DNA of 64,000 nucleotides from Caldinitratiruptor microaerophilus (GTDB lineage Bacteria > Bacillota > Sulfobacillia > Symbiobacteriales > ZC4RG38): assembly GCF_025999835.1 (NCBI RefSeq), contig NZ_AP025628.1, forward strand, positions 2,356,001-2,420,000, written 5' to 3'. This document shows positions 18,021-42,658 of this stretch, piece after piece (position 1 is the stretch's first letter; each line of letters opens with the position of its first letter). Position numbers and translations under genes: made by a program. A model generated the notes under the pieces. The model was not told the DNA's origin, made no database searches, and saw only the letters and a program-made list of their open reading frames with translations.

Positions 18021-18557
18021 TTGGCCCAGCGTGTCTACGCGTACGGAATCGTCGTGTTGCCCCCGCCACACGTGCGGCGGGAGATCGCGGCGCTCCGGCG
18101 CCGCCACCCTGTCCTGCACGCCAGCGTGCCGCCCCACATCACCGTCAAGGCCCCGTTCGTCCTCCGCAGCACCGGCGCCTGGGCGCTCGAGCGCCTCGAA
18201 GAGATCTGCGCCGCCCACGAGCCCTTCGAACTGGAACTCGACGGGCTGGACAGCTTCGGAACCGAGGTCCTGTACGTACGGGTTGCCGAATCCGAACCGC
18301 TCCGGCGACTCCACCAGGATCTGGTCGACGGCCTGGCGGGGTACGTGGAAACCCTGCGGGACCGCTACGAGGGCAAGGCCTACACCCCTCACCTGACCGT
18401 CGCCGACCACCTCACGCCGGAGGAGTTCGCCCTCGCCCGCCGCGAGCTGGCCGGCTGGCACCCGCGCGCCCGCTTCGAGGTGGACGCCGTCCACCTCCTC
18501 CGCGGGTGGAACCGCTGGGACGTCACCCGCAGCATCCCATTGAGTTGTGAGTTGTGA
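18021..18557 (+). CDS. 2'-5' RNA ligase family (2H phosphoesterase)
   Basis: A 178-residue protein with the two HxT motifs of the 2H fold, His39-Ile-Thr41 and His124-Leu-Thr126, spaced as in the YjcG/LigT-like family. Members cleave or join 2',3'-cyclic phosphate RNA ends; the cellular target is unknown. The start is TTG at 18021, seven bases after AGGGAGG; the frame is open further upstream, but nothing there looks coding. The last four residues (SCEL) and the TGA stop are encoded by a heptanucleotide repeat that has invaded the 3' end. Confidence 0.85.
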   Translation: MAQRVYAYGIVVLPPPHVRREIAALRRRHPVLHASVPPHITVKAPFVLRSTGAWALERLEEICAAHEPFELELDGLDSFGTEVLYVRVAESEPLRRLHQDLVDGLAGYVETLRDRYEGKAYTPHLTVADHLTPEEFALARRELAGWHPRARFEVDAVHLLRGWNRWDVTRSIPLSCEL

Positions 18558-18596
18558 GTGGTGAGTGGTGAGGTGTGAGTGGTGAGTGGTGAGGTG
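18541..18596 (+). repeat. Heptanucleotide tandem repeat, 8 units
   Basis: Eight consecutive 7-base units of the form TGAG(T/G)(T/G)G without interruption. The third unit supplies the stop codon of the 2'-5' RNA ligase-like gene. Because seven is not a multiple of three, TGA appears in all three plus-strand frames. A related array lies at 41851-41890. Confidence 0.9.
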
Positions 18597-18649
18597 TCCG
18601 TGGGGGGCCGGGAGCGGCGACCCGGCCGGCGCACGCGTCACGGCATCCG

Positions 18650-20041
18650 TCACCGGTGTTCTCTGTGCAGCAGCGTGACTGCCTCGATGTGGGCCGTGTG
18701 GGGGAACATGTCGACCGGCTGGACCTCCACCGTCCGGTAGCCCAGGCCCGCCAGGATGGCCAGGTCGCGGGCGAGGGTCGAGGGGTTGCAGGACACGTAG
18801 ACGATCCGCTCCGGCCCCATGGCGGCTGCCGCCTCCAGCACCGTCCGGGCGGCACCCTGGCGGGGCGGGTCCAGCACCACGGCGCGCGGCCGCAGCCCCT
18901 CCCGCCACAGACGTGGCAGGATTTCCTCGGCCTCGCCCGCGTGGAAGCGGACGTTCGTGACGCCATTGCGCCGGGCATTCTCCCAGGCGTCCTCAACCGC
19001 CTCGGGGACGGACTCCACCCCGTGCACGCTGCCCCAGTCGCGGGCGAGGAGGAGGGAGATGGTGCCCGTCCCCGCGTAGAGGTCGACCGCCACGTCCCGC
19101 GGGCCACGGCCGGCGTATGCCAGGGCCCGCTCGTAGAGAATCTCCGCCTGCGCGGGGTTAACCTGGAAGAAGGAAACCGGGGAGATCCGGAACTCGAGGC
19201 CGAGGATCCGCTCGGTGATCCGGGGACGGCCGGCGAGGTGCACGTTCTCGGGGCCCAGGATGACGTTCGTACGTGCGGGGTTCACGTTCTGCCAGACGCT
19301 GGCCACCCCGGGCACCCGCGCGATGAGGCCGGCGGCCATCTCCGCCAGGCCCGGGACCTCCCGCCGCGCGGTCACCAGCACCACCAGTGCCTCCCCCGTG
19401 GCGTGGGACACCCGGACCAGCACGTGACGGAGGTCGCCGCGGTGCGCGGCCTCGTCGTACACGCTCACGTCCCGCTCCCGGATGAGCTCGCGCGCCTCCG
19501 CCAGCACCCGGCTGGCAAGGGGGTGCTGGATGCGGCACTCCACCACGTCGACGATGTCGTGCGTACCGGGTGCGTAGAACCCGAGGACCGCCCGCCCGCC
19601 GGCCCAACCGACCGGGAAGGCGGCCTTGTGGCGGTACCACCAGGGGTCGGCCATGCCCAGGACGGGGTGCACCGTCACCCCCCTGAGCCCGCCGATCCGC
19701 TCCAGCGCGTCGCGGACCCGCTGGCGCTTCTCCCGGAGCTGCGCGGCGTAATCGAGGTGCTGCAGCTGGCACCCGCCGCAGCGGGCGTACACGCCGCACG
19801 GCGGTGGAACCCGTTCCGGGGACGGGTCGAGGACCCGCATCAGTTCCGCCCGCCCGTAGCGCGGGTGAACTTCCGTGACCCGGGCCTCCACCCGCTCCCC
19901 CGGAAGCGCCCCCGGCACGAACAGGGCGAATCCGCCGGCGCGGCCCACCCCCTCCCCGGCGTGCCCGAGGCCCGTCACCGTGACCGTGACGGTCTCGCCG
20001 GGGCGGACGGGCGGCGAGCGGTCGGCGCGGCGGCCCGGCAA
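18650..20041 (-). CDS. rlmD: 23S rRNA uridine C5-methyltransferase, RumA family
   Basis: A 463-residue SAM-dependent m5U methyltransferase. It has an N-terminal TRAM domain (about 13-72), iron-sulfur ligands Cys82, Cys88, Cys91 (CGGCQLQHL) and Cys169, a SAM motif VDLYAGTGTISLLLA, then LDPPRQGA and the catalytic cysteine in YVSCNPSTLARDL. Firmicute members often modify both U747 and U1939, so RlmCD is equally possible. TTG start seven bases after GAGGAAGGG. Confidence 0.93.
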   Translation of the reverse strand: MPGRRADRSPPVRPGETVTVTVTGLGHAGEGVGRAGGFALFVPGALPGERVEARVTEVHPRYGRAELMRVLDPSPERVPPPCGVYARCGGCQLQHLDYAAQLREKRQRVRDALERIGGLRGVTVHPVLGMADPWWYRHKAAFPVGWAGGRAVLGFYAPGTHDIVDVVECRIQHPLASRVLAEARELIRERDVSVYDEAAHRGDLRHVLVRVSHATGEALVVLVTARREVPGLAEMAAGLIARVPGVASVWQNVNPARTNVILGPENVHLAGRPRITERILGLEFRISPVSFFQVNPAQAEILYERALAYAGRGPRDVAVDLYAGTGTISLLLARDWGSVHGVESVPEAVEDAWENARRNGVTNVRFHAGEAEEILPRLWREGLRPRAVVLDPPRQGAARTVLEAAAAMGPERIVYVSCNPSTLARDLAILAGLGYRTVEVQPVDMFPHTAHIEAVTLLHREHR

Positions 20042-40106: not shown

Positions 40107-40604
40107 CTAGCTGCCGCCCCCTCCGCCGCCTCCGCCGCCGCTGCCTCCACCACCGCCTCCGCCTCCGCCGCCCTGCTGCTGGCCGCCCCCGCCCTGCTGC
40201 TGGCCGCCGCCGGCGCCGCGGGACATCAGCTCCAGGATGGCGTTCCGGGCGGCCTGCTGGACGGCCTGGCGGACCTCGGGCTTCTCGACGAGGCGCATGA
40301 TGGCCTCCTCGAGCTGTTCCCGGCCGGTGGCCGACTCGAGGTGCTTCTTGACGGCGTCGTTCAGGGCCTTCTTGCCGTCCTCGGTGTCCAGCGACTTCTC
40401 GAGCATCTCCGCCGCGGCCAGGTTCCGCACCTGGCTGGCGATGTAGTCCTTCATGTCCTCCGAGTGCAGTTCCTCGGCGACCTGCTTTCGGATCTGCTCC
40501 CGGTCCAGACCGCCTTCCGCGCCGCCGCGCCGCTGGGGGGCTGCGGCACAGCCGGCCACCCACAGCAGCGCGGCCGCCACGACGACGGGCAGCGAACGCC
40601 TCAT
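40107..40604 (-). CDS. gerD: GerD-like spore germination lipoprotein
   Basis: A 165-residue lipoprotein. The N-terminus is a basic-hydrophobic signal with lipobox VAGC (Cys19). The helical core (about 30-125), with LDTEDGKKALNDAVKKHLES and EKPEVRQAVQQAA, resembles GerD, the inner-membrane lipoprotein that gathers germinant receptors in spores. The last 38 residues are nearly all Gly and Gln, which is unusual. ATG start eight bases after GGAGGG. It ends five bases from the convergent DUF1634 gene. Identification rests on core pattern and lipobox only. Confidence 0.6.
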   Translation of the reverse strand: MRRSLPVVVAAALLWVAGCAAAPQRRGGAEGGLDREQIRKQVAEELHSEDMKDYIASQVRNLAAAEMLEKSLDTEDGKKALNDAVKKHLESATGREQLEEAIMRLVEKPEVRQAVQQAARNAILELMSRGAGGGQQQGGGGQQQGGGGGGGGGGSGGGGGGGGGS

Positions 40605-41850: not shown

Positions 41851-41890
41851 TGACTCACAACTCACAACTCACTACTCACTACTCACCACT
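41851..41890 (-). repeat. Heptanucleotide tandem repeat at the hisIE 3' end
   Basis: On the minus strand, four full units TGAGTAG, TGAGTAG, TGAGTTG, TGAGTTG (41885-41858) flanked by partial units. The first unit gives the TAG stop of hisIE, so the last codons (Ser-Gly-Glu) are repeat-derived. It belongs to the same family and has the same orientation to its gene as 18541-18596. Confidence 0.88.
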
Positions 41891-42658
41891 TCTTCGCTTC
41901 CCCCGCCGCCGCGCCAGCTCGGCGGCGATCTCGTCCAGGGAGATGCCCGCCTGCTCCAGCACGACCAGCGTGTGGAACCACAGGTCGGCGACCTCCCAGA
42001 CCAGGCCCGCCCGATCCGCGCCCTTGGCCGCCAGGAGCACCTCGCCGGCCTCCTCGGCCACCTTCTTCAGCGCGGCGTCCGGCGCCCTGGCAAAGAGGCG
42101 CGAGGTGTACGAGCCGGGATCGGGGTGCCGGCGGCGGTCGGCGAGCACCGCCGCCAGCTCGGACAGCACGTCGCCGAGGCGGGCGGCGGAGGCTGGCGCA
42201 CCCGGCCACCAGGAGGGCACGTGGACGGCCTCCGGGGCATCCGCGTGGTCGCCGGAGCCGGCCGGGGCCGCGGCCGGACCGTCCGCCAGCCGGGGCCACT
42301 CTGCCCGGCGGTGCATGAAGCAGGAGTACGTGCCGAGGTGGCAGGCCACCCCTTCCTGCTCGACGAGCACGAGGAGCGTGTCGCCATCGCAGTCGGTGCG
42401 GATCTCCCGGACGTGCTGGACGTGCCCGGACGTCTCCCCCTTGTGCCACAGGGCCTGGCGCGACCGGCTCCAGAACCAGGTCTGGCCGGTCTCCAGCGTC
42501 CGGCGCAGGGCTTCCCGGTTCATGTAGGCGAGCATGAGCACCTGCCCCGTGCGGGCATCCTGCACCACGGCCGGCAGGAGGCCGTCCGGGCCCCAGCGCA
42601 GGTCCTCCTCCCGCAGGCTCGCGGCGGTGCCCGCCGCGGTGTTGGCAGCGCGGTTCAC
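41879..42658 (-). CDS. hisIE: Bifunctional phosphoribosyl-AMP cyclohydrolase / phosphoribosyl-ATP pyrophosphatase
   Basis: A 259-residue fusion. The HisI domain (about 18-125) has the zinc/magnesium residues Cys90, Asp91 and Asp93 (TDCDGD), Cys106 and Cys113 (ACHLGTYSC). The HisE domain (about 165-250) has [14 protein letters not shown] and [13 protein letters not shown]. The linker of about 40 residues is Ala/Pro-rich. GTG start overlaps the hisF stop by four bases. Stop and last residues come from the heptanucleotide repeat, so the natural C-terminus may have been altered slightly. Confidence 0.95.

Follow-up and report, generated by a model that had tools for sequence, protein, structure and literature searches.

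TGAGTKR heptanucleotide arrays at gene edges in Caldinitratiruptor microaerophilus and a possible neutral route to stop codon replacement

The window array and the gene that it terminates

The stretch of Caldinitratiruptor microaerophilus DNA analyzed here (the window) comprises 64 kb of a 3.6-Mb contig; the pattern search described below covered the genome. The window contains two arrays of a TGAG-initial heptamer, and in both the stop codon of a protein-coding gene lies inside the array. The features of the two loci are as follows.

18021..18557, plus strand: 2'-5' RNA ligase-like gene ending in the first array (PF13563, residues 14-161 of 178, E 1.3e-34)
18541..18596, plus strand: heptanucleotide array of eight units (unit reading, TRF)
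18555..18557, plus strand: TGA stop codon of the ligase-like gene, bases 1-3 of the third unit (sequence reading)
18650..20041, minus strand: convergent RNA uracil-5-methyltransferase-like gene with a TRAM domain (start uncertain)
about 41854..41892, minus strand: second heptamer array, TGAGTAG/TGAGTTG units (TRF, pattern search)
41879..42658, minus strand: hisIE-like gene (PRA-CH and PRA-PH domains) with its TAG stop inside the second array (domains, gene calling)

Read base by base, positions 18541-18596 of the plus strand form eight units of TGAG(T/G)(T/G)G in unbroken register, in the order TGAGTTG (twice), TGAGTGG (twice), TGAGGTG, TGAGTGG (twice) and TGAGGTG. TRF reported a period of 7 and 7.6 copies over the same interval, and the eight in-register units of the preliminary description are thus confirmed by both methods. 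Its statement that TGA occurs in all three frames of this strand while the other strand is free of stops was likewise borne out by a frame count, with three, three and two TGA codons in the plus frames and zero stops in the minus frames, so that minus-strand ORFs are open across the array. Its wording "first copy" was also apt, given the second array on the minus strand. Two-unit near-matches numbered 11 in the 64-kb window, a count that includes both window arrays, against a shuffle mean of 0.73, and first-order Markov sequence totalling 5.12 Mb, counting both strands, contained no run of at least three units. The array is therefore a heptanucleotide simple-sequence repeat, with head-to-tail 7-bp units beyond chance. 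G-quadruplex repeats have a run of at least three G in each unit; no G run in TGAGTTG or TGAGTGG exceeds two, which places these units outside that class. No terminator-like site was found at 18450-18700, around the array.

The ligase-like gene was taken to start at the TTG at 18021, a start chosen by the analyst; the gene-calling script gave 18072-18557. As had been proposed, the array provides its last four codons and stop: the frame runs through TRSIPL into AGT TGT GAG TTG and TGA, giving SCEL and the stop. Orthologues were found in two genomes of the same family (G001 and G002) and end in RSFPLGDP or RSFALGDP, compared with RSIPLSCEL here. The orthologue C-termini are near identical in extent, indicating that only a three-residue tail has been replaced; the expectation of a lost C-terminus at this gene is not supported. 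The 3' end of the convergent methyltransferase-like gene lies 53 bp beyond the array. The second array is located between the hisIE-like gene and an aminotransferase gene. Elsewhere in the window, a GCC-rich tract at 40113-40219 has TRF periods of 3 and 21 and lies partly within a called gene.

TGAGTKR arrays in this genome and in other bacteria

A search of the genome with an 18-base pattern returned 83 places, of which 18 clear arrays were kept, a clear array having at least one place with no more than one mismatch. Places with only two-mismatch matches (524848 and 2922497) or only three-mismatch matches (among them 98883, 1930598, 2510111, 2621686, 2650060 and 2922318) were left out because, by the analyst's own estimate, so many are expected by chance. 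One of the dropped places, 524848, contradicts the orientation rule described below, as it reads inward with a gene start 10 bp away. The backward control for this search was high (61 places against 83; 2 against 27 in another search) because TGAGTGG reversed is its own rotation and because three mismatches is a lax threshold. Genes were called in about 6 kb around each of 20 places by a codon-usage script of our own rather than taken from annotation.

Of the 18 clear arrays, 14 extend over a gene's 3' end; each of the 14 contains that gene's stop codon and reads TGAG in sense with the gene. Another (L028) starts directly after the TAG of a longer ORF; the script's gene was 353 bp off and was replaced by this ORF, which ends at the array. 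The remaining three are each directed away from a nearby gene start, at distances of 9, 44 and 64 bp. The nearer gene is on the TGAG 5' side in 17 of 18 cases, or 16 of 18 if the L028 gene call is left uncorrected. No called gene contains one of the 18 within its body, so that genome-wide this is a repeat of DNA outside gene bodies. The proposal that such arrays are nonrandom with respect to gene ends and strand therefore holds, with 14 of 18 overlapping 3' ends, all in sense. One array (L033) overlaps genes at both edges, by 4 and 5 bases; the stop it holds is a TAG in a degenerate first unit, and this TAG may be native because orthologues end at the same residue. At a gene that we take to be rpoD from its sequence (L038), the array stop coincides with the orthologue ends. 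The outward gene-edge rule reported for GGGNATC repeats, as set out in the relevant parts of PMC4692102, is followed by the clear arrays here.

The last 85 residues of the 14 array-ended proteins were compared with the two same-family genomes. Matches were obtained for 13 (none for L032, and a weak one for L047), and in 12 of these 13 the alignment reaches to within 0-9 residues of the end of the array-ended protein and 0-7 of the orthologue end. The exception is hisIE (L037), where orthologues extend 14-21 residues further. Since the alignments come close to both protein ends, the arrays sit at natural gene ends and replace short tails. At 22 orthologue loci of G001 and G002 no excess of seed-like sequence was seen, the best matches being 13.7 against 14.2 in shuffles.

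Arrays of the same unit are present in distant bacteria, and their distribution is sporadic. Matches to a 25-base pattern were found in three of 398 genomes in a phylum sample and matches to the 18-base pattern in two of 61 genomes in a search of relatives, this genome counted in both. The L048 locus, from a genome of the same order (G003), has one 18-base match within a longer degenerate stretch with more TGAG-like units, and its genus may contain decayed arrays. A 25-base pattern scan of bacterial contigs gave at least 118 stretches, 80 of them as loci; by record title, the matches listed include Bacteroidetes, Cyanobacteria, Chloroflexi, Planctomycetes and other groups. From the 89 arrays listed, 67 were usable after exclusion of four at ends, seven inside ORFs and 11 without a neighbour. 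Among these the nearer gene is on the TGAG 5' side in 53, on the other side in 13 and tied in one (p 7e-7), and a gene within 25 bp is on the 5' side in 41 and on the other side in eight. All seven of the listed arrays that the script placed inside ORFs are antisense, the stop-free orientation. Arrays among the matches listed also stand outward at gene starts. Their 5' edge tends to start with AGTKR: with one mismatch tolerated, 31 of 88 listed arrays have their first mismatch at position 2 of the unit, and without tolerance 29 of 98 do. No age gradient (fresh units on the gene side, decayed units far from it) was detected along the listed arrays, as flanking units 2-4 match alike on both sides.

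Copy number changes and the role of the stop codon

Orthologous sites were read within the genus of Chryseobacterium oleae, the species of the L080 locus. There the TGAGTTA/TGAGTAA arrays differ in copy number by whole 7-bp units (2 to 10) at fixed sites. The unit count at one gene end is 10, 6, 5, 4, 4, 8 and 2 across seven species, of which two carry TGAGTTA and five carry TGAGTAA, and the far edge is alike. In five of the seven species this gene stops at a TAA before the TGAG units; in the other two the TAA falls within a unit of the array (TGAGTAA and the degenerate GGAGTAA). The comparison is unrooted. At another site, three close species have no unit, one seed-like unit and five units, respectively. 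At a third, an array occurs where sister species show degenerate GGTTATGGATTGTG, and further species have other heptamers (AAAGATA, GCTTATT, GCTAGTT) in the same gap. These differences in unit and stop are as expected from in-place gain and loss of units together with an ability of the array to take over a stop. The gap of the L080 site begins with a palindrome-like stretch, about ATAACT-N4-AGTTAT, which is conserved beside the array in nearly all of 30 loci (L228-L257); several unrelated heptamer arrays start directly after this stretch.

The orientation of the arrays at gene ends, sense in 14 of 14, and their TGA codons in three frames would fit a cassette under selection, in which all-frame stops halt read-through or frameshifted ribosomes. 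The part of this idea that concerns gene ends and strand holds up, both here (14 of 18) and in the stop-free orientation of all seven in-ORF arrays among the matches listed elsewhere. The supply of stops as the reason for placement is not supported. The parts of PMC4692102 on GGGNATC-type heptamers report that these lie nearer their 5' neighbouring ORF whatever its orientation, and such units are stop-free on both strands. This was partly borne out for GGGGAYT arrays in one Nostoc genome (L111), where 28 of 44 were usable and 14 were placed inside ORFs, placements that are perhaps partly false because these arrays are open on both strands. Within 50 bp of a gene, 13 GGGGAYT arrays are on the 5' side and one is on the 3' side (p 0.002), while the plain nearest-gene count, 17 against 11, is not significant (p 0.34). 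The eight TGAGTKR arrays read from the same genome are all nearer the 5'-side gene. Ten GGGGAYT arrays come after a gene's 3' end, and five of these are 5-9 bp past the native stop; none of the ten covers a stop, which carries little weight since this is largely by construction, the unit being unable to supply one. Because stop-free heptamers are reported to follow the same rule, placement does not seem to need stops; arrays are also directed outward at gene starts. The later replacement of a stop is open only to arrays that contain stops themselves. Within the text seen of PMC6764699, a survey of spare stop codons reports no evidence that eubacteria select for them. A selected, spreading, gene-truncating stop cassette is thus the less likely interpretation, and we regard selection for stops as an improbable basis for these arrays.

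Possible origins of the arrays

The reading that we favor, and consider somewhat better than even, is that of a heptanucleotide simple repeat of the TGAGTKR family that changes in place by slippage and is followed by neutral "stop capture". It would begin with a short seed of two near-copies 7 bp apart at a gene edge, which would gain and lose whole units in place, most simply through replication slippage. A TGAG array directed outward in sense from a 3' end would bring each frame to a stop within some 21 bases. This would make the original stop and final few codons of the gene dispensable, and small deletions, frameshifts and stop mutations there would be harmless, so that the array could become the gene terminus by a neutral ratchet. 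From the comparisons above we infer slippage as the step, its neutrality, the direction in which the Chryseobacterium stop changed and the same course of events in this genome. In-place slippage accounts neither for one heptamer at 18 places nor for arrays that start in the final codons of genes instead of being scattered through the intergenic gap. Also counted against it are the lack of a seed excess at the G001 and G002 orthologue loci, the missing age gradient, which had been predicted, and the AGTKR edge preference (31 of 88 among the matches listed), because random seeds would not give it.

A rival reading is dispersal through copying, in which gene edges would receive whole arrays or individual units by way of ectopic copying, break repair or an enzyme that uses a template. 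In its favor, one heptamer family occupies 18 places in one genome, is absent at such length from 59 of the 61 genomes in the search of relatives and 395 of the 398 in the phylum sample, prefers an AGTKR edge among the matches listed, and recurs as the same unit in distant phyla. The change by whole units at the same sites in Chryseobacterium argues against this, as does the failure to notice by eye any common flank beyond the repeat in the 20 regions, a visual comparison and not an alignment test. Templating by a reverse transcriptase was rejected with a single Pfam model: PF00078, the only enzyme model searched, gave no match in the genome, and its control was positive in three of 14 named genomes. 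Overall, dispersal is considered unlikely. Slightly less likely still is a single directional process that would lay heptamer arrays of any unit outward from either gene end, often from AGTTR, with stops captured neutrally afterwards; it would be carried out by an enzyme or by a form of repair linked to gene boundaries.

A role in RNA, with the arrays acting as hairpins, protein-binding leaders or 3' structures, appears as improbable as selection for stops. Inverted array pairs face each other across intergenic gaps at 1054470-1054636 (L031), 3217575-3217809 (L046) and 2621686-2621880 (L041, one partner degenerate), and all three fold better than mononucleotide shuffles (z -6.0, -4.9 and -5.9), so that long hairpins could form; translational roles have also been proposed for TAACTGA arrays in the portions of PMC4679880 on that repeat. 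Inverted repeats fold well by construction, however, 14 of the 18 clear arrays have no clear partner nearby, and the window array lacks a terminator-like site.

The cyanobacterial STRR sequences are comparable heptanucleotide repeats. The GGGAATC and GGGGA(C/T)T repeats of Xanthomonas and Nostoc are described, in the parts of PMC4692102 on them, as genome-wide and mostly non-coding, with some overlapping stops, as single arrays or inverted pairs, and as varying in length among relatives. They share with the TGAGTKG arrays the heptamer unit, genome-wide occurrence, gene-edge placement, stop overlap and inverted pairs; their units are quadruplex-capable and stop-free, whereas the window unit has no GGG run and has stops in three frames. 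According to the sections of PMC4679880 on the TAACTGA repeats of Beggiatoaceae, Cyanobacteria and Bacteroidetes, these lie at gene edges, some over stop codons, and the three-frame stops on one strand, with ORF-end placement as a consequence, are already stated there. The reverse complement, TCAGTTA, has AGTTA in common with TGAGTTA. The TAACTGA unit differs from that of the window, and in the main genome examined there it is found mainly immediately 5' of start codons; those sections contain no stop-capture comparison. Mrazek et al. 2007, as cited in the same parts of PMC4679880 and PMC4692102, found heptanucleotides to be the most abundant class of long repeats and proposed slippage. The window array fits among these long simple sequence repeats, of which the parts seen make no mention of the TGAGTKR family in the present lineage. 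Heptamer arrays, gene-edge placement, stop overlap and three-frame stops are thus already in print (PMC4692102, PMC4679880, in the sections concerned). Neither the TGAGTKG family nor stop capture appeared as the subject of any listed literature title, a weak negative, as subscription literature lay mostly outside the search.

The stop-capture step is a modest new point. It suggests that a repeat holding stops in every frame can take over as the end of a gene, which loses its own stop harmlessly. The outward gene-edge rule gains another unit and another lineage, which helps to separate the rule from coding content. Should a process, rather than selection alone, underlie the rule, heptamer arrays would point to a new step in the growth of intergenic DNA.
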